64,000 nt of DNA from Desulfosporosinus nitroreducens (GTDB lineage Bacteria > Bacillota > Desulfitobacteriia > Desulfitobacteriales > Desulfitobacteriaceae), in assembly GCF_023897015.1 (NCBI RefSeq), contig NZ_JAMHFY010000006.1, positions 184,469 to 248,468 of the forward strand, in the 5' to 3' direction. Positions 50,149 through 63,678 of the stretch are shown here, in pieces (the stretch's first letter is position 1; every line of letters begins with the position of its first letter). Both the position numbers and the translations under genes were made by a program. Under the pieces are notes generated by a model that was not told where the DNA came from, did not search any database, and saw only the letters and a program-made list of their open reading frames with translations.

Positions 50149-51022
50149 ATGTTTTTGTTACAGACTAACGTACCGGAAATTAACGCATGGATCGAACGCC
50201 TTCGAGAAGCTAATAAAAGCGAAAACACCCTCCGTGCCTATAGCCAGAGAGTGCTGCATTTTGCTGAATGGTTTGAATCAACTATTGGAGAATTGCTTAC
50301 CCCTGAGCGTGTCACTCCAACAGACCTGCGTGAATATAAATCCTACCTAATAATAAACCTTAAGCGTACTCCATCGACAGTCAATCTTTCCTTTGTTGCG
50401 ATTGCAAACTGACTGGACTTTAACGGTCAGAATGTACCAATGCCGTCATATGTGGAAGAGGTACGTTCTGAACCTCAAGGTCGGAGCGGTTGGACCAACG
50501 ATCATTTACTCGTGCTGTGGAACGCGAAAGCATCCCACGGGATATTGCCCTAATTACGCTCATGCTAAACACTGGTCTTCGTATTAGCGAAGTGGCTGCA
50601 TTGGATATAGACGATCTCATTATTGGGGAGCGCTCCGGCAGTCTCAAGGTACCGCTGGGGAAAGGGAGTAAATTCCGTACTGTCCCCCTTAATAGTGACA
50701 GACGGAAAGTCCTGCGCGACTATATAAACGGTAGAACAAAAGGAACATTGTTTTTAAGTCAGCGGGAGAAGGGAACAGTCGCTTATCTTCCAGCGGAATT
50801 CGGCAGGTAATTGATCAGTACGCTTACCTTGCGAAATTACCCGAACTTCATCCCCATGGTCTACGGCATACATTTGCTCGGAACATACTGAAAACTGGTG
50901 AAGGACTGGAAATGGTCGCTGAGATCCTGGGTCACAAGAGTCTCAATACGACACGAATTTACACTCAGCCGTTTGAACAGGATAAAGCGAAAGCTATGGA
51001 GAAGTTGTCGCAAAGACATTAA
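50149..51022 (+). pseudogene. Tyrosine recombinase (phage-integrase family), frameshifted
   Basis: The parts of one ~290-residue integrase are spread over at least three frames. The N-terminal SAM-like domain (NAWIERLREANKSENTLRAY) stops at 50412; the catalytic domain resumes with LMLNTGLRISEVAALDIDDL, which has the first Arg, breaks again near 50810, then continues HPHGLRHTFARNILKTGEG, LGHKSLNTTRIYTQP with His, Arg and the nucleophilic Tyr, ending at 51022. All catalytic residues are still readable, so decay is recent. A second, shorter relic of a close relative lies at 52323. Confidence 0.85.
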
Positions 51023-52533: not shown

Positions 52534-52972
52534 TAACAAGGTCAAAGGTGGCGTGTTTTATTCAGGGAAGATATCGCAGAGGGCTTCGGCTGAAAAAGGT
52601 TGTTACTTCGGGGCTCAAATGGGAAATATATTTCGTGAACGTAGCACGTTGTTTTTTTTGAGAAGCAAATATACGGTAATAACAAGGAAAAATAAGAGAA
52701 GACCAATAGGGAATTGCTTGACGGTTTGAAAGTGAAGAGTGCTACTCAATACCATAAGGTGGTTTCCAGGCCCAAAAAATAATATATACAAATCATTATT
52801 TGTGAAATTACTACGAGGATAAGTTAAAACTTATCCTCGGTTTTCGTCCAAATTCCCCTATGACTACCATGTCCCCTGAACAAAAAAATGTCTAGATGTA
52901 ATGTTATGATGGACGTATCGCAGTATTTCTTAAATTTACTATTTACGGAGACATAGAAAAAGGCGAAATAGG
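52534..52972. other. Intergenic region upstream of the cas operon
   Basis: About 440 bp with no gene. It contains the terminator at 52814 and nothing else that I can support; in particular no small toxin-like ORF with a ribosome site next to the crRNA-like element. Confidence 0.4.
52814..52844 (+). terminator. Intrinsic terminator insulating the cas operon
   Basis: CGAGGATAAG (52814-52823) and CTTATCCTCG (52830-52839) form a perfect 10-bp stem around TTAAAA, followed by GTTTT. Confidence 0.85.
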
Positions 52973-53001
52973 TTGACAATAATATGAAAAAGTGATAATT
53001 T
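52973..53001 (+). promoter_or_regulatory. Promoter of the cas operon
   Basis: TTGACA (52973-52978), exactly 17 nt, TAATTT (52996-53001). The -35 is perfect, so the promoter should be strong unless repressed. The start is expected near 53008, which is inside the 14-bp sequence matched by the spacer-like segment downstream. Confidence 0.8.
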
Positions 53002-53003
53002 TA

Positions 53004-53017
53004 TATTAATTAAACAT
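53004..53017 (-). promoter_or_regulatory. Predicted target site of the crRNA-like guide, over the cas transcription start
   Basis: On the minus strand this reads ATGTTTAATTAATA, identical to the first 14 nt of the spacer-like segment at 53049. Immediately 5' on the minus strand (plus 53020-53018) is CCA, which fits the CCN-type PAMs reported for clostridial type I-B systems. It begins 3 nt after the -10 box. Binding of a Cas complex here would block initiation. The same pair can also be read as an inverted repeat. Confidence 0.6.
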
Positions 53018-53019
53018 TG

Positions 53020-53100
53020 GTAAATTTAACCATATGTGGAATGTAAATATGTTTAATTAATAGGTCTTTTTATTTAATTTAACCACCATGGAATTTAAGA
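53020..53100 (+). ncRNA. crRNA-like mini-array (two degenerate repeats and a 22-nt spacer) in the cas leader
   Basis: The first repeat-like unit (53020-53048) ends GGAATGTAAAT exactly as the array repeats do, so its 8-nt crRNA 5' handle ATGTAAAT is intact, and keeps TAACCAT with the CCA/TGG stem. The second (53071-53100) keeps TTTAACCA and ATGGAAT but has a decayed handle, which a terminal repeat would not need. Between them lies a 22-nt segment starting ATGTTTAATTAATA. The unit begins about 12 nt after the predicted start of the cas transcript and ends 22 nt before cas6. Cas6 cutting of both units would release a short guide. This matches the design of the regulatory guides called CreR/CreA. 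Strong sequence case, untested. Confidence 0.65.
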
Positions 53101-53122
53101 AAATGAGTAAGGAGGCGAAACC

Positions 53123-53854
53123 ATGCGAATTAAAATTGAGTTTGAAACCGAGTGCGAAGATCTGCCCATTGATTATCGAAGAAAATTCATATCATATTTA
53201 AAGGGTGCTTTGGCAGATTATAACCAGGATCTTTTTGCTGCTTTATACGGAGAAGGACCCTCTTCCAAGTCTTTTTGCTTCAGTATCTATTTTGCACCTG
53301 AAGTGACTATTGCAAAAGATGGGATCACTCTACACAGTAAACGATTTCATGTTTGGTTAACCACGCGGGATGTATTGATAGGGGTGCACCTGGCCAATGC
53401 TTTTATGGCCCGCCGCAACAAGTGGTTTCCTATGGCTGATAGTAATAATAAGTTGAAGGTGCTCTCTATAACTAAAGTACAGGAATATTCGATCACGTCC
53501 AATGCCGTTCATTTTAAAATTCTTTCACCCATTGTCATCCGAGATCACGATGAAGAAAAGGGGAGGGACTGGTATCTAACGTTTGAAGATGATGACTTTG
53601 AGGTGATTTGGAAACGAAACTTAAAGACGGAGTTTCAAAAGGCCTTTGGTAGAGATGTCTGCGATGATATTAATGCCTTACGCATCAAGCCCATTCGTCT
53701 AAAAAAGACGGTTGTAAAAAGTTACGGAATTTATATTCCTTGTACCATCGGTAGCCTCGTAGTGGAAGGGGAAAAATATTTACTGGAATACCTGTATAAG
53801 GCTGGAGCCGGAAGTAAAAGGGCGATGGGCTTTGGCTGCTTAGATATAGTGTAA
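53123..53854 (+). CDS. cas6: CRISPR-associated endoribonuclease Cas6
   Basis: 243 residues, ATG with AAGGAGGCG 7 nt upstream. Cas6 cuts the pre-crRNA inside each repeat, leaving an 8-nt 5' handle. The family's C-terminal glycine-rich loop is clear: LLEYLYKAGAGSKRAMGFGCLDIV region near residues 219-243, with GAGSKRAMGFGCL as the core. The N-terminal RRM-like half has LPIDYRRKFISYLKGAL and SKSFCFSIYF. A His in the KRFHVWL segment near residue 71 could be catalytic, but the site is variable. It is first in the cas operon and its leader carries two repeat-like sequences that it may itself recognise. Confidence 0.93.
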   Translation: MRIKIEFETECEDLPIDYRRKFISYLKGALADYNQDLFAALYGEGPSSKSFCFSIYFAPEVTIAKDGITLHSKRFHVWLTTRDVLIGVHLANAFMARRNKWFPMADSNNKLKVLSITKVQEYSITSNAVHFKILSPIVIRDHDEEKGRDWYLTFEDDDFEVIWKRNLKTEFQKAFGRDVCDDINALRIKPIRLKKTVVKSYGIYIPCTIGSLVVEGEKYLLEYLYKAGAGSKRAMGFGCLDIV

Positions 53855-53865
53855 GGAGGGGTGAA

Positions 53866-55580
53866 ATGAGCAGTGATACTATTCGACTTACAATGGGCGA
53901 TTGGCAGTGGAACGCAGCGTTAATTGGGTTTATTAATATTGTTGGAGAAGAAAATGTTCACATTATGGATGATACAGTGGAGTTTACATCAGACGTGCTA
54001 GATGGATTTGAAGACAAATACTTCGCATATCTTATACATGCTTATGAGAAAACGTTATCATGGAGCAAAATAGTTAGTTTTAAAAACAAACTGGATGGCT
54101 ACAAAGAAAGCAATTTTGAAAATTTCAATTTGAAGGCACTTCAGAGCTTAAATACTTACATAAAAGATGTTAAACGTTATACCAAAAGCAATAGTTATAA
54201 GGCTGCTTACGAGCTGATTGATTCGAATGTGGACATGCTGTCTCTAGAAAAACACTTAACGACAATTAAAGAGCCTAAAGGTCAGCAACAGTTCGATGTC
54301 GATAGAAACAGACTGATCGCAGAGGTGAAACAGGTTGTAGCTATTTTGCGTCAAATAATTGACTACTGCGACAGTGTGGAAAGCAAACGGTATATTGGTG
54401 CCAAAAATGTCATTTACACGGTGATTAAAAATGCTTGGAGTGGGGTGAGTTTCCTCAACGCCCAGACGAAGGAAAAAGATGTCTATATTGATTACAAAAC
54501 ATATTTTGTAGATACGGGGACTGATTATCTAAAAAGTAATAAGAGTAAATACAAATTCAATTGTTTCGTGTGTGATGCGCCCATTAAGGATATGAGTAAT
54601 GATTTGAGCTTTTTAAACGCAACCGGCTTTGATGTTGCGAGGAAATCCTCTCATGTTTGGGATTTTCAAAATGACATAGCCATTTGCCCAATATGTAAGT
54701 TGATATATTCTTGTTTGCCGGCAGGTATGACCTACATTTATGACCGGGGTATTTATGTTAATGCGAATATCCGCCTGCAAGATGCACTGAATATTAATTT
54801 AAAAATCAAAAAGGATATTTTGAGCTCGCAAGAGGGCGGAATGCGATCAGTGTACCATGCATTGGTGGGCGCGTTGCATGAAAAAGAAAATAATTCGGCC
54901 AAATACGAGCTTGCCGATGTACAGGTGGTCCGTTATGAAAATGAGAGCTATCGATTCAATATCTTGTCCCAAAAAATGCTGGAAATTATCGTAGCGTTCG
55001 AGCAGGAATTGAACAGTCTCATTAAGACGGCTTTCAGCGAAAATGGTGTAAGCGTCCAAATCCATGATGAGGTCGTTACTCGTATCTTTAACAGTCAAAA
55101 TTTATTCACCTTGATTCACAGGATGTTGCATTATAAACTTTCCGATTCGTCAAAATGCTATTTTAATGGAGCGCATGTGACTCATCTATTAAAGATCAAC
55201 CAAAGAATTTATATAAGTTTAGGAGGGATCAAGATGGATAAAGCTGGGGAACAAGTGCAGGAAAACATTGATCTAGTCAAGAACGCCAAAGCGGCTGGCT
55301 ATTATCTTCGCGGGGAGTACACCAACAAGGGTTCAGGCAATAAACTTCCAGGAATTTGTTATCGCTTGCTCAATGCTCTCAAAACATCCAACACCGATAT
55401 GTTTATGGATGTAACACTTAATTGCTATCTGTATGTAAGGAGTCAAGTCCCAAAAGTCATTACGGATGTATTGGGCAAAGATAAGAGTTTTAGTACCATG
55501 GGTTATGCCTTTGTCGCTGGAATGATAGACGCCCAGGATAGTCAAGAGAGTTCAACGAAAAAAGTGAAGGGGGAAGGGAA

Positions 55581-55584
<4 letters not shown>
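53866..55584 (+). CDS. cas8b: Cas8 of type I-B, Cst1 (CXXC-CXXC) family
   Basis: 572 residues, ATG with AAGGAGGGG upstream. It is the large subunit of the Cascade-type complex and is expected to read the PAM. The diagnostic zinc-finger-like pairs of the Cst1 family are present: CFVCDAPIKD near residue 230 and CPICKLIYSC near 275, the latter followed by the typical LPAGMTYIYDRGIYVN segment. The rest is poorly conserved. In older naming this is cst1 or cas8a1 of the Tneap subtype. Its last bases overlap the start of the next gene (ATGA), so the complex subunits are translationally coupled. Confidence 0.9.
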
Positions 55585-57192
<1,608 letters not shown>

Positions 57193-57202
57193 GAGGATTG
57201 TT

Positions 57203-59476
57203 GTGGACGAACGTGCGTTGGCAAAGTCTAATCCCAAAGAGGATATCCAGACACATACCGATAAATTACTGAAAAACTTCGATTTATTACGAAATCTATA
57301 TCCCGATCGGCTTTCAGATCGAGATTGGGAGTTGCTACGTTGGGCTTGTGTTTATCACGATTTAGGGAAATTAAATTCTAAGTTTCAAGAACGAATTAAA
57401 ACTGGAAAGCGTTTTCCAAATGAAGTCCCTCATGGCCTTTTGAGTCTAGCCTTTATTGACTACAATTCGCTAAAAAAAGTGTATGACAGAAATGACCTTA
57501 AGCTTTTGTTTCAGGCTGTGGCTTATCACCATGATCGGAAAATGCCGTTCCAGAATTCTGATATTGAAGAGGAATTCCCAGGACTACGTGCTCCTTCTGA
57601 ACTGTTTGAATACGATAAGTTGCCAAAAAAAATATTTATAGCCGAGTACATCGATCAGCGTTATTTCAGTATAAACGAACGATTTTATGAGGAGCAGGGG
57701 GACTTGTTTTTTCGCTTTATCATGCTTGAGGGATTGCTGAACCGTCTGGATTATGCTGCGAGTGCACATATTCCGATTGAGAATCGCAATGATTTCCTCA
57801 AGGCAGCTATGGATGGGTTGATGGGACGGTGGATAAAGAGCGATAAAAAAGCACGTTGGAATGAGTTGCAGGATTATATGCAAAATAGTGCGGACAAGAA
57901 TGTCATTGTGATTGCTCAAACTGGAATGGGTAAGACGGAGGCAGGCCTTTTATGGCTCGGGAATGACAAAGGATTCTTTACTCTACCACTTAAAAGTGCC
58001 ATCAATGCGATTTATAATCGTATAACAACAGATATTGTGTTGGAGGATAAGGAAGAACGGGTTGGAATGCTTCATTCAGACACGTTTATTCGCTATCTTG
58101 AGCAAAGTGAGCTTGGAGATAAAGAAGAACAGAATGATAAAAAAGAGGACCTATCGCTAGATATCTATTACACGAAAACAAGACAACTTTCGTTGCCACT
58201 GACCATTTGTACTCTAGATCAACTATTTAGCTTTGTTTTTCGTTATAGGGGATTTGAACAGAAATTGGCGACATTATCTTATGCAAAAGTAATTATCGAT
58301 GAGGTACAGATGTACTCTCCCGAATTAATGGCTTATCTAGCTCTTGGGTTGAATTATATTACAAGCATGGGCGGCAAGTTTGCCATCTTAACGGCTACAT
58401 TGCCAACCTTTTTTATTGATTTGCTACGAGGGCAAAAAATTCAATTTGAAACTCCTCGGGTTTTTACAGACCATCGTCTTCGTCATAGCTTAAAAGTGTT
58501 GAATAAGGATATCAATACTGAAGATATTGTCAGTTTTAGCCGTCAATACGGTGGTAAGAAACTATTAGTGATTTGTAATACTGTAAAAAGTGCGGTTAAT
58601 TTGTATCACCAGCTTAAAGAGGAAATAGGTGATGAGAAACAGTCAGTGCATCTTCTCCATAGCTGTTTTACTCAAGCGGATAGAGCACACAAAGAAAAGC
58701 ATATTTTGAAAATGGGGCAAAGAGAGAGTACAGAAAGTGGTATATGGATTTCAACCCAAATCGTGGAGGCTTCTCTGGATATCGATTTTGACCTTTTATT
58801 TACAGAGTTATCCGACTTAAATGGCTTGTTCCAACGGATGGGAAGATGTTATAGGAAACGGAAGTTGGACCTCCCCTACAACTGTTTTGTATTTACTGGC
58901 GGCGACAAACGTTGTAGCGGGGTAGGTGTGTTTATTGATAAGGAAATTCACAGACTTTCCAAGGAGGCGCTGTCTTGTGTTGACGGTGTAATTGGAGAAG
59001 AACGGAAAGTGGCTATGGTGGAAGAACTTTACACTAAGAAAAACTTGCCAGAGTACTATGTCGCTATGACGGATCTTATTCGTTATGTGCAAAGCTATCA
59101 AGCTTATGAACTTAATAAAAAAGAGGCGAGTGAGAGATTCCGCTACATCGACACAGTCAGCGTGATTCCACGCGAGGTTTTTGAAGAACATAAAGAGGAC
59201 ATCAACGCTGCCATTAATGAATTGAAAAAAGTCTACAGCGGAGTAGATAAAAGCCAAGTTAAAACACTTAAAGCAAAAGCACGGAGTAGGATTTCTGCCC
59301 AAACTGTGACTATTTCCTCATACTTAGCAAGGAATATCGAAATAATGCCACAAATAATTAATGATTATGAAAAAATCCTCATTGCTGAATGTGGATACAA
59401 CAGCGAAGAGGGGATTATCAGACCTGTGTTAAAGCCGAAGGCAGAACTTGAGGATTTTTCAGCCCATTCTTTCTAA
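57203..59476 (+). CDS. cas3: Cas3 nuclease-helicase (HD plus DExH)
   Basis: 757 residues from the GTG at 57203, set by AGGAGG 6 nt upstream; an earlier in-frame ATG lies inside cas5. The N-terminal HD nuclease shows HTDKLLKNFDLL, CVYHDLGKLNSKFQ near residue 50, VPHGLLSLAF and AYHHDRK near 110. The helicase shows Walker A AQTGMGKTEAGLLWL near 250, motif II VIIDEVQMYSPEL near 375, motif III LTATLPTFF and motif VI LFQRMGRCYRKR near 545. Cas3 is recruited to target-bound Cascade and unwinds and degrades the foreign DNA. All motifs are intact. Confidence 0.95.
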   Translation: MDERALAKSNPKEDIQTHTDKLLKNFDLLRNLYPDRLSDRDWELLRWACVYHDLGKLNSKFQERIKTGKRFPNEVPHGLLSLAFIDYNSLKKVYDRNDLKLLFQAVAYHHDRKMPFQNSDIEEEFPGLRAPSELFEYDKLPKKIFIAEYIDQRYFSINERFYEEQGDLFFRFIMLEGLLNRLDYAASAHIPIENRNDFLKAAMDGLMGRWIKSDKKARWNELQDYMQNSADKNVIVIAQTGMGKTEAGLLWLGNDKGFFTLPLKSAINAIYNRITTDIVLEDKEERVGMLHSDTFIRYLEQSELGDKEEQNDKKEDLSLDIYYTKTRQLSLPLTICTLDQLFSFVFRYRGFEQKLATLSYAKVIIDEVQMYSPELMAYLALGLNYITSMGGKFAILTATLPTFFIDLLRGQKIQFETPRVFTDHRLRHSLKVLNKDINTEDIVSFSRQYGGKKLLVICNTVKSAVNLYHQLKEEIGDEKQSVHLLHSCFTQADRAHKEKHILKMGQRESTESGIWISTQIVEASLDIDFDLLFTELSDLNGLFQRMGRCYRKRKLDLPYNCFVFTGGDKRCSGVGVFIDKEIHRLSKEALSCVDGVIGEERKVAMVEELYTKKNLPEYYVAMTDLIRYVQSYQAYELNKKEASERFRYIDTVSVIPREVFEEHKEDINAAINELKKVYSGVDKSQVKTLKAKARSRISAQTVTISSYLARNIEIMPQIINDYEKILIAECGYNSEEGIIRPVLKPKAELEDFSAHSF

Positions 59477-59513
59477 TTTGAAGGATTCTTCAGAGGATAA
59501 GGAGGCTGGTGTT

Positions 59514-60002
59514 ATGCGTATTACGGGAACGATGTTTTATTATTATTTTGTCTGTGCGCGGAAACTATGGTGCTTTTACAATAACATCAGGTTGGAGAAT
59601 GAAAGTGATAGAGTACTGCTGGGCAAGTTGATTGATGAGACTGCTTATGGGCGAGAGCACAAACATATAATGATCGACGAAACGGTCAATCTGGATTTCA
59701 TCAAGGATTGGAAGGTCTTGCATGAAGTAAAAAAGAGCAAAAGTATAGAAGAGGCATCTATTTGGCAGGTAAAGTATTATTTGTATTTCCTGAATCAAAG
59801 GGGAATTCAAATTGAAAAAGGCATTTTGGACTATCCAAAACTCAAAAAACGTGAGGAGATCTTCTTCCAGGAAGGTGATTCGGAAAAAATCGAAGAGATT
59901 ATATCAGGTATAGAAAGAATCGTTTCTCAGGAAAAGATGCCGCCACTTATAGACTCCAAAATCTGTAAAAACTGCGCTTATTACGAATATTGTTACGTTT
60001 AA
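59514..60002 (+). CDS. cas4: Cas4 exonuclease, RecB-type with iron-sulphur cysteines
   Basis: 162 residues from the ATG at 59514, with AAGGAGG 8 nt upstream; an upstream frame extension lacks a ribosome site. One Cys lies near the N terminus (FVCARKLWCFYN) and three at the end (CKNCAYYEYC), the iron-sulphur pattern of Cas4. The RecB-like nuclease site is spread over GKLIDETAYG, DETVNLDFI and HEVKKSKSIEEASIWQVKYYLYFL (Asp, Glu-x-Lys and Gln-x3-Tyr). Cas4 trims and orients prespacers so that spacers come from PAM-adjacent DNA. Next to cas1 and cas2. Confidence 0.93.
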   Translation: MRITGTMFYYYFVCARKLWCFYNNIRLENESDRVLLGKLIDETAYGREHKHIMIDETVNLDFIKDWKVLHEVKKSKSIEEASIWQVKYYLYFLNQRGIQIEKGILDYPKLKKREEIFFQEGDSEKIEEIISGIERIVSQEKMPPLIDSKICKNCAYYEYCYV

Positions 60003-60013
60003 GGAGGTACAGT

Positions 60014-61006
60014 ATGGCGGAGAGTTTCTATTTGTTTGCAAATGGAGAATTGCATAGGAAAGACAATGTTTTGCGGGTTACCACGCCCGATGGTCGATTT
60101 AAAGATATTAAGGTAGAAATGACACGTGACATTTATGTATTTGGAGAGCTTAGCTTAAATACAAAATGTCTGAACTATGCTGGTCAGTTATCTATGCCTA
60201 TTCATTTTTTCAATTACTACGGCTCATATACTGGAAGTTTTTATCCGAAGGAAGAAAACGTATCCGGCAAATTGCTGATTGAGCAAGTAAATCATTATAC
60301 TGACAAAGATAAGCGGTTGGAAATTGCAAAGGAATTCATTGAGGCGGCAAGTTATAACATTTTACGAAATCTGCGTTATTATAATGGAAGAAACAAAGAC
60401 TTAAAAACTTGTATCGATGATATCAAAGCTTTAAGAAGAGGCATTGCTCGAACGCAGGATGTTAATGAATTGATGGGAGTAGAAGGGAGTATTCGGCGAA
60501 CTTACTATAGTGGATGGAAGGAGATTATCAATCAAGAAATCGATTTTGAAAAAAGGGTTAAACGTCCACCGGATAATATGATCAATGCTCTGATCTCTTT
60601 TGTAAATTCTCTAGTATATGTGACATGTTTAACTGAAATCTATAAAACTCAGTTGCACCCGGCTGTGAGCTACTTGCATAGTGCAGGAGAGAGACGTTTT
60701 TCCCTGTGTTTAGATATTTCGGAAGTGTTTAAACCCCTAATTGCAGATCGTCTGATATTTTCTATGTTAAATAAGAACATGCTGACGGAAAAGGATTTTG
60801 AACGGGGGTCAAACTTCTGTTACCTTAAGGATGCTTCACGTAAGAGGTTGTTGCAGGAATATGACGAAGCTCTGGAGAGGACGATCCAACACAAAGGGCT
60901 GAATAAAAATGTCTCATACCGGCATTTAATTCGTCTGGAATGCTATAAACTAATTAAGCATTTGATGGGAGATAAAAAATATGAAGGCTTTAGTATTTGG
61001 TGGTGA
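60014..61006 (+). CDS. cas1: Cas1 integrase of the adaptation complex
   Basis: 330 residues from the ATG at 60014, placed by AAGGAGG overlapping the cas4 stop. The N-terminal beta domain (SFYLFANGELHRKDN) and the alpha-helical catalytic domain are both present. The metal residues are the Glu in LMGVEGSIRRTYYSGW near residue 158, the His in LHPAVSYLHSAGERRFSL near 222, and the Glu in LDISEVFKPLIADRL near 241. With Cas2 it inserts new spacers at the leader-proximal repeat. Intact, so the array could still grow. Confidence 0.96.
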   Translation: MAESFYLFANGELHRKDNVLRVTTPDGRFKDIKVEMTRDIYVFGELSLNTKCLNYAGQLSMPIHFFNYYGSYTGSFYPKEENVSGKLLIEQVNHYTDKDKRLEIAKEFIEAASYNILRNLRYYNGRNKDLKTCIDDIKALRRGIARTQDVNELMGVEGSIRRTYYSGWKEIINQEIDFEKRVKRPPDNMINALISFVNSLVYVTCLTEIYKTQLHPAVSYLHSAGERRFSLCLDISEVFKPLIADRLIFSMLNKNMLTEKDFERGSNFCYLKDASRKRLLQEYDEALERTIQHKGLNKNVSYRHLIRLECYKLIKHLMGDKKYEGFSIWW

Positions 61007-61008
61007 CG

Positions 61009-61287
61009 ATGTACATTATATTGGTTTATGATATTGAGATGGATGATGGTGGAGCGAAGGCGTCAAGGAGGATTTTCAAAACTAGTAAGAAATATCTAAC
61101 CCATATTCAGAAATCTGTTTTTGAAGGTGAGATTACACCAGCCTTATTAAAAAAGTTGCAAATGGAGTTGTCAAAGTATATTCGTGTGGATAGAGATTCA
61201 GTATTAATATTCAAAAGTAGAGAAGAGCGTTGGCTACAAAAAGAGTTTTGGGGGAAAGAAGATGATAAAACCTCCAATTTCTTTTGA
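61009..61287 (+). CDS. cas2: Cas2
   Basis: 92 residues; the ATG at 61009 follows the cas1 stop by 2 nt and gives the family N terminus MYIILVYDIEM with the conserved Asp. The ferredoxin-like fold continues with RRIFKTSKKYLTHIQKSVFEGEITPALLKKL and ends with DSVLIFKSREERWL. Cas2 dimerises between two Cas1 dimers. It ends the operon; a small GC-rich hairpin follows, then the leader of the array. Confidence 0.95.
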   Translation: MYIILVYDIEMDDGGAKASRRIFKTSKKYLTHIQKSVFEGEITPALLKKLQMELSKYIRVDRDSVLIFKSREERWLQKEFWGKEDDKTSNFF

Positions 61288-61477: not shown

Positions 61478-63678
61478 GTAGTAATCTAACCATGATGGAA
61501 TGTAAATTCAAAGGAAGATATTGAAGTAACTAAGAGGTTGATAGGTAGTAATCTAACCATGATGGAATGTAAATTCGTTAAACTAGCTAAATGATAACTA
61601 GTCGTTGAAGTAGTAATCTAACCATGATGGAATGTAAATAGTAATATTCAGTTTTAATTCTAGAATTCAATCCAGTAGTAATCTAACCATGATGGAATGT
61701 AAATAATTGAGCATTTAAACAAGCTTACAGAGACACGAATAGTAGTAATCTAACCATGATGGAATGTAAATAATGTTGACAATTTTTTTGTTCATCTCTT
61801 GTGCAGTAGTAATCTAACCATGATGGAATGTAAATATGGTTACAGTTCTTGATGCCCCATCAAGTATGGCCGTAGTAATCTAACCATGATGGAATGTAAA
61901 TAGTAAAGCAATAGTCAATATAGTTTCAGAAATTGAGTAGTAATCTAACCATGATGGAATGTAAATCTTTTGAAGCTGTATACAATCTAGGAAAAGGGAA
62001 AAGTAGTAATCTAACCATGATGGAATGTAAATATACCCCCTTAAAAACACCAACAACTAAAACCCTGTAGTAATCTAACCATGATGGAATGTAAATATTT
62101 TATTTTTAGTTGACGCGATTATATTTCTTCACCGTAGTAATCTAACCATGATGGAATGTAAATTCTTATATGCTTAATGATAAGCGTTCTCCAGGACTGT
62201 AGTAATCTAACCATGATGGAATGTAAATTCACATCACCCGGAGCATAAGATCCGTTTTTAGGACGTAGTAATCTAACCATGATGGAATGTAAATATAAAT
62301 AGCGTCAGCAGTAAAAAACATATTTGTTGGTAGTAATCTAACCATGATGGAATGTAAATTCCGTTACCTCGCCCCACTCTGTACCATCTGCTGTCGTAGT
62401 AATCTAACCATGATGGAATGTAAATTGATAGTCCGCCTTTTTCGCCGTTCATTCCATCATTGTAGTAATCTAACCATGATGGAATGTAAATCTACCCATA
62501 TAGATCTCTTCGTAGTATTCAAGTACCAACTCAGTAGTAATCTAACCATGATGGAATGTAAATATAGTTAGACGGTCCAACATCGACTTTGCATTGAGTA
62601 GTAATCTAACCATGATGGAATGTAAATCCATTTGAACTATAATATAAAGCAGAGCCTTGCCATGTAGTAATCTAACCATGATGGAATGTAAATAACATGA
62701 CGTTACCGCCATCCACTAACTCTGTTTTGGTAGTAATCTAACCATGATGGAATGTAAATCTCATCCATAATGCTACTGGTCTGTTGCTGTGCTGTGTAGT
62801 AATCTAACCATGATGGAATGTAAATCCATCCAAACGCACCTACATCTACAGGTGTAGAATGTAGTAATCTAACCATGATGGAATGTAAATTTGTTATTAC
62901 CTCTTTCTATGGTATTCTAAAGGCAGTAGTAATCTAACCATGATGGAATGTAAATTACATGCGGCACAGTCTGTCCATCCGTTAGGGCATTGTAGTAATC
63001 TAACCATGATGGAATGTAAATTACCTCTTTAGGCTTGCGATTCTTTAGCCAAAAGATTTGTAGTAATCTAACCATGATGGAATGTAAATCTGTCTAAAGC
63101 TGTTGCTGTTATGATTAATGGATCGTAGTAATCTAACCATGATGGAATGTAAATTAGTAAAGCGGTATGACCTCCAATTGTAGCAATACGTAGTAATCTA
63201 ACCATGATGGAATGTAAATATATATCCGTCCCGTGACTTCATGGCCGGAATATCCGTAGTAATCTAACCATGATGGAATGTAAATCCAACCACTGTAATA
63301 ATTCTGAAGCACTCCATAGGGTAGTAATCTAACCATGATGGAATGTAAATAAATCTAAGTTAAAGCATAGATAACGATCACCAGAGTAGTAATCTAACCA
63401 TGATGGAATGTAAATCGCTCTACAAGGGCCATCCTAAATCCTCTACGCACGTAGTAATCTAACCATGATGGAATGTAAATACAGTAGAATCGTGCACCAT
63501 GAAAGTCCTAGAAGAGTAGTAATCTAACCATGATGGAATGTAAAGACTATCGCTCCAAACGCTCCGCACATAATGCCAACTAGTAGTAATCTAACCATGA
63601 TGGAATGTAAAGTACATAGATAACATAGCAATAAATGATATTGGCTTCGTAGTAATTTAACCATAGTGGAATATAAAG
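61478..63678 (+). CRISPR. CRISPR array: 34 repeats of 30 bp, 33 spacers (type I-B)
   Basis: The repeat begins GTAGTAATCTAACC and ends GGAATGTAAAT, with a small CCAT/ATGG stem in the middle; cutting would leave the 8-nt handle ATGTAAAT. Repeats 1-31 are identical by eye. Repeats 32 and 33 end in G instead of T and repeat 34 (63649-63678) differs at several positions, so the right end is the old, leader-distal end and the cas2 side is the leader. Spacers are 34-38 nt, mostly 35-36, with one of 42 nt (62492-62533). No two spacers look alike. Transcription would run on the plus strand, from the leader promoter. Confidence 0.99.

Follow-up and report, generated by a model that had tools for sequence, protein, structure and literature searches.

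The window, a stretch of 64,000 nucleotides from a Desulfosporosinus nitroreducens contig, carries on its plus strand a complete type I-B set of cas genes in the order cas6-cas8b1-cas7-cas5-cas3-cas4-cas1-cas2, followed by a CRISPR array. The first gene of the operon, cas6 (53123..53854), is assigned by TIGR01877 and the seven others (53866..61287) each score above their NCBIfam cut-off. The array (61478..63677, plus strand) comprises 33 exact-core repeats of the sequence GTAGTAATCTAACCATGATGGAATGTAAAT and a degenerate final one; its spacers measure 34-42 nt. Upstream of the cas locus, a tyrosine recombinase lies in two pieces in separate ORFs (50149-50810; an integrase N-terminal domain and a catalytic domain), and a terminator-like hairpin of 11 pairs (52814-52839) is located between upstream gene remnants and the predicted cas promoter. 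A match to the Rfam L20 leader at 52729-52852 was sub-threshold and the sole match, and was rejected.

Between the predicted promoter and cas6, a repeat-spacer-repeat unit (53019-53100, plus strand) stands outside the array, at the cas locus, as CreR guides do. The two degenerate repeats and the 22-nt segment between them, described in the sequence-only reading of this DNA, are all present. The first repeat, psiR1 (53019..53048), closes with a 5' handle, ATGTAAAT (53041-53048), that is identical over 8/8 nt to the end of the array repeat. The spacer (53049..53070) is followed by the second repeat, psiR2 (53071..53100), which is identical to the array repeat at 20/24 nt over the core and retains the CCA/TGG stem as well as the upstream part, but has decayed over the last eight nt at its 3' end. 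An ordinary array looks different, given that psiR1 agrees with the repeat at 17/30 ungapped positions and that the spacer has 22 nt against 34-42 nt in the array. The predicted mature CreR-like RNA (53041..53092) consists of the 8-nt handle, the 22-nt spacer and 22 nt of psiR2, its ends being placed where Cas6 would be expected to cut, 8 nt ahead of the end of each repeat. The remainder of the leader (53101-53122) is a ribosome-binding region only, and a leader ATG at 53049 opens three codons as judged by eye.

The spacer matches the predicted promoter region of its own operon. Its positions 1-14 equal, at 14/14 nt, the minus strand of the target (53004..53017; TATTAATTAAACAT on the plus strand), which overlaps the predicted transcription start and lies beside the PAM CCA (53018..53020; TGG on the plus strand), itself sharing 2 nt with psiR1. 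The match had been claimed from the letters and is confirmed. The promoter proposed along with it, TTGACA-17-TAATTT (52973..53001, plus strand), has both hexamers in place (TTGACA at 52973-52978; TAATTT at 52996-53001, gap 17); a second -10 candidate, GATAAT at 52994-52999, is the better hexamer, at a gap of 15. Since a consensus promoter scan with gaps of 16-18 and stricter rules does not list the cas promoter, it stays a prediction.

The claim that a 14-nt match beside a PAM is improbable by chance holds up well. The 156-nt upstream region was put through 20,000 dinucleotide shuffles, among which the 14-mer turned up once at any place and never with CCN, and a CCN-flanked match complete over positions 1-5 and 7-11 turned up twice. 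When all spacer starts in the window leader were scanned (CCN, at least 8/10), the register set by the handle gave the sole pair. The target core CCNATGTTNAATTA, with its sixth base free, occurs a single time in the 5,457,426-base genome, at the target site.

The sequence-only reading depends on CCA being compatible with the PAM of this system, and the protospacers of the array allow a direct comparison. Of the eight array-spacer matches with 74% identity or more, seven are preceded by CCN (CCG, CCT, CCA) and the eighth (L056, 30/36) lies behind GAG. The array spacer at 63220 matches a genome of the same genus (L055, behind CCG) and four viral contigs (L064-L067, behind CCG, CCT, CCG and CCG, respectively), the protospacer sites of L055 and L064 being identical. 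Two further spacers match one viral contig from IMG/VR (L068) behind CCA and CCG, and because two different array spacers match it, this contig is likely a relative of a past invader. With 28-33 of 36 bases matching, the CCN sites can be taken as relatives of the original targets. L059 (27/37) and L060 (30/42) contain weaker matches that lack CC. CCA thus fits as a PAM, since array spacers match phage DNA behind CCG, CCA and CCT. Five degenerate spacer patterns were compared with IMG/VR, of which two gave five contigs and three gave nothing. The window array yielded no protospacer in phage records, plasmid records or its own genome, nor did the arrays of two relatives in phage records, a search outside which the arrays of L003, L050, L052 and L076-L097 remained.

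Similar units recur beside cas6 in related genomes. The Cas6 searches returned three metagenome-assembled records (L001-L003) and loci from further genomes, L045 being a duplicate of L003, and the first ten non-redundant loci are the window, L001, L002, L003, L005, L006, L014, L015, L046 and L018. Cas6 identity to the window is 59-84% in L001, L002, L003, L005, L006, L014 and L015 and 31% in L018, and the Cas6 proteins of L046 and L072 have profile E-values of 4.5e-123 and 4.9e-52. A mini-CRISPR lies beside cas6 in 8/10 of these first loci, and L072, where it is on the strand opposite to cas6, is the ninth carrier, which brings the genomes besides the window to eight. Spacer length is 16-24 nt in eight loci. 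Upstream of cas6, L001 has a partial psiR2 only and L046 has no repeat/spacer-target pair; because these 2/10 related loci do without it, the element is not essential. In L001, a close relative, psiR1, spacer and target are lost and the break falls inside psiR2. The gene 3' of cas6 encodes Cas8b1 (TIGR01908) in 8/8 loci checked, a set made up of L002, L003, L005, L006, L014, L015, L018 and L046 and excluding L072. The position of the predicted promoter differs among the relatives and is uncertain in L005, L014 and L015, so that the place of the target relative to the promoter is likewise uncertain there.

If the spacer acts as a guide, spacer and target should change together in relatives, as the sequence-only reading had proposed to check, and this is the case in 9/9 element-bearing loci, each with CCA or CCG beside its target. 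For scoring, the register was fixed by the 8-nt handle and the best upstream site was taken irrespective of the PAM; this site is flanked by CCA in 7/9 loci and by CCG in 2/9. The spacers, with lower case where a base differs from the target, are ATGTTTAATTAATA (window), ATGTTAAATTAcTA (L003), TGTATtAGTTTA (L002), ATTTTtTTGTTTTAT (L005), ATATAtGTAGTtG (L006), GTTTAgTTATCaCT (L014), GTATTtATTAgaATTAG (L015), AATATtTTGATtTTA (L018) and TTAATaTTTTTaAGTTT (L072). Matching reaches 9/9 at each of positions 1-5 (45/45) and 7-10 and 8/9 at position 11 (44/45 for 7-11), followed by 8/9 at position 13 and 7/9 at position 14 (15/18 in total), with at most 4/9 beyond 14, whereas position 6 matches in 2/9 loci and position 12 in 3/9. 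Fisher tests of position 6 against the other positions 1-11 (89/90; 1.9e-8) and of position 12 against 13-14 (0.026) assume independent loci and positions, which is true only roughly. The nine loci are not fully independent, because the window and L003 share related spacers and targets. The exact 14-nt match put forward earlier is peculiar to the window; what is conserved across the loci is limited to positions 1-5, 7-11 and 13-14, with 6 and 12 free. Cascade of E. coli type I-E flips out every sixth crRNA base, although position 6 aided binding for some guides (PMC5904413). The lost matching at 6 and 12 is predicted by these flipped-out bases and is not predicted by an RNA hairpin. At position 6, the mismatched letter is the complementary one in 7/7 cases of the nine-locus set (T/A five times, G/C and A/T), a pattern that may be chance in AT-rich DNA.

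The first eight sites were recognised by eye, and only then was the scoring rule set, which omits position 6. L072 was found after the rule was fixed and can therefore be treated as out of sample; of its first 17 bases, only those at 6 and 12 are mismatched. With 20,000 shuffles per locus for the eight loci then known, the number of CCN-flanked matches at least as good as observed over positions 1-5 and 7-11 ranged from 0 to 26, the highest count belonging to L015, whose score is 9/10. When spacers were compared with the upstream regions of other loci, CCN-flanked sites scored 3-7 of 10 with two exceptions, namely the related pair of the window and L003 (10/10) and the L018 spacer in the L005 region (9/10). 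If the PAM is disregarded, the window region also holds a 10/10 site for the spacer of L005, which is T-rich.

A blind scan of 400 nt upstream of cas6 in 48 loci, with a handle of at least 5/7 and CCN required, gave 10/10 in nine: the window, L002, L003, L005, L006, L014, L018, L070 and L072. Six rows reached 9/10, one each in L015, L022, L023, L026 and L075 and an additional one in L072. When the 48-locus set is shuffled by mononucleotides, the mean is 0.35 rows at 10/10 and 4.55 at 9/10 or better, so that the 9/10 rows other than L015 are at noise level. A looser, PAM-free scan of 28 loci was noisy, and the elements of L049, L053 and L076 were masked in it as array; among the matches listed, the CCN-flanked hits alone were used. 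In the window it gave two other 10/10 hits, at 52814 (flank ACC) and 53441 (flank CTG), which take their handles from the wrong repeat orientation and were discarded. Its hit in L087, a 19/20 inverted repeat without CCN, was rejected.

The two repeats have decayed in a complementary manner. In the six loci with a known array repeat, psiR1 has kept 40/48 positions of its handle compared to 29/54 of its upstream part, and psiR2 41/54 of its upstream part compared to 28/48 of its handle. Inside the predicted RNA, repeat positions are conserved at 81/102 against 57/102 outside (Fisher 5e-4). As far as the letters tell, the conserved parts are those that a Cas6-cut crRNA would hold. Cascade assembly in Haloarcula depends on the 8-nt handle and on the initial 12 nt of the repeat (PMC9458426).

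The spacer and its target could also be read as the arms of a hairpin that the cas mRNA forms at its 5' end, a stabiliser or attenuator whose likeness to a guide would be incidental. The window leader RNA is predicted to pair over 11 bp of target and spacer with a minimum energy of -20.1 kcal/mol (z-score -1.44; 18/200 shuffles fold as well), and in 7/9 loci the target is an inverted repeat of the spacer on the same strand. Such a helix explains neither the position-6 mismatches in 7/9 loci amid 89/90 matching positions nor CCA or CCG at every site; in L018 it is impossible, the target having the same sense as the spacer, and in L072 the guide and the cas genes are on opposite strands. We therefore judge a hairpin to be very unlikely. 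Fainter still is the prospect that the unit is what remains of the end of an old array, or else a palindromic operator bound by a regulatory protein, the match having arisen by chance. The DNA is AT-rich and the match is an inverted repeat of the kind common among operators, yet chance matches are rare in the shuffles, and nine loci with differing letters share the register, the PAM and the position pattern, where a site recognised by a single protein would retain its sequence.

A guide of the CreA type, by which a small toxin rather than the cas genes would be repressed, has the same anatomy (PMC9458426), and there are loci in the present set that resemble it. L070 and, farther upstream, L071 hold guides with a target before a small hydrophobic ORF; they were counted as CreTA-like and omitted from the nine-locus set, and since position 6 matches in both, their inclusion would give 4/11. 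In the more distant L076 (G628) and L078 (G625), a guide with a degenerate repeat upstream of cas6 is CreTA-like as well. The L078 spacer has two matching sites, one of 17/17 nt next to CCT and another of 14 nt next to CCA, and the L076 spacer matches 15/16 nt next to CCA; by eye, the targets are promoter-like stretches before a small hydrophobic ORF of ~20-26 codons. In the window, by contrast, the target is the promoter region directly before cas6 instead of the promoter of an adjacent toxin gene, and no other notable ORF is seen by eye in 53004-53122. An antitoxin role is accordingly very improbable here, even if a toxic RNA within the leader may exist.

We consider it highly probable that the element is a CreR-type autorepression guide, from which a Cas6-cut RNA of ~52 nt would direct Cascade against its own type I-B operon. 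The sequence itself shows both repeats, a short spacer and a target next to a PAM, and in eight other genomes this target has changed in step with the spacer; the nine-locus covariation and compatible PAM support the earlier reading of a guide against its own cas promoter. The leader would be transcribed from the promoter that the guide targets, and Cas6 would cut before 53041 and before 53093 to yield a crRNA-like RNA that would load into Cascade. Steered to the transcription start, Cascade would block RNA polymerase and repress the cas operon. Because the match is 14 bp long and the spacer 22 nt, Cascade should bind without cleaving. Such silent binding is expected from spacers of 16-24 nt, because in Haloarcula I-B a 24-nt spacer represses without interference, target transcription being cut to 10.80% with interference and priming gone (PMC10989794). 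Repression would be relaxed whenever Cas proteins are occupied or inactivated by array crRNAs or an anti-CRISPR. Since the guide sits in the 5' leader, every copy would have to come out of a cas transcript, and repression of the operon would also restrict the supply of guides.

CreR, likewise a crRNA-like RNA encoded outside the array with limited complementarity to its own cas promoter (PMC12737573, PMC13131331, PMC12948488), provides autorepression in types I-B, I-E and V-A through this partial complementarity (PMC13131331) and responds to crRNA supply and Acr proteins (PMC12737573). The mechanism having been published as CreR, no new principle is involved. Compared to CreR as rendered in passages citing Liu et al. 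2023 (doi 10.1016/j.chom.2023.08.005), the present element lies inside the predicted 5' leader and leaves positions 6 and 12 free. CreTA is alike in its psiR1-spacer-psiR2 order, degenerate repeats, short seed match and use of Cascade as repressor (PMC9458426), with a CreA seed match of 11 bp (PMC10989794), but CreA represses a toxin gene, whereas the window target precedes cas6 and no toxin gene is seen in the leader. The scaRNA (PMC9458426) and the long tracrRNA in Cas9 autorepression (PMC13131331) also employ a Cas effector as repressor, but belong to type II and function without Cas6 or Cascade.

What is likely distinctive, judging from these comparisons, is the site inside the leader of the targeted operon together with an evolutionary footprint of the six-base spacing of Cascade. 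Shmakov et al. 2023 reportedly predicted crRNA-like mini-arrays, mostly of type I, that share with this element a partial complementarity to cas promoters. A literature search with a scope exclusive of Liu et al. 2023 and Shmakov et al. 2023 returned no account of the cas leaders of these organisms, by which we do not claim absence from print. We are inclined, with some reserve, to see in these loci a family of autorepression guides embedded in the leaders of clostridial-type I-B systems. In such a family the guide would be cut from the cas mRNA it represses, Cas6, guide and Cascade would form a closed loop, and covariation would proceed in five-base blocks with 6 and 12 free. The nine natural guide-target pairs make a comparative case for RNA-guided self-control of type I-B, and the free positions 6 and 12 offer a sequence-only criterion to tell Cascade-bound regulatory guides from hairpins and chance matches. 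In addition, the closed loop makes predictions on how the Cas level is set and how such cells respond to anti-CRISPRs.

Beyond the closer relatives, no mini-CRISPR with a matching target was seen by eye in ~300 nt upstream of the distant Cas6 loci L020-L043; L022 has two ordinary-looking repeats there, probably an array end. A Cas6 search in viral contigs found none. The plasmid collection contains three records with Cas6 of ~30% identity, and 360 nt upstream in two of the three show no repeat-like copies by eye. In L018, viewed as the reverse complement, an ORF of 20 codons with a ribosome-binding-like site, identified by eye, lies between the guide and cas6.
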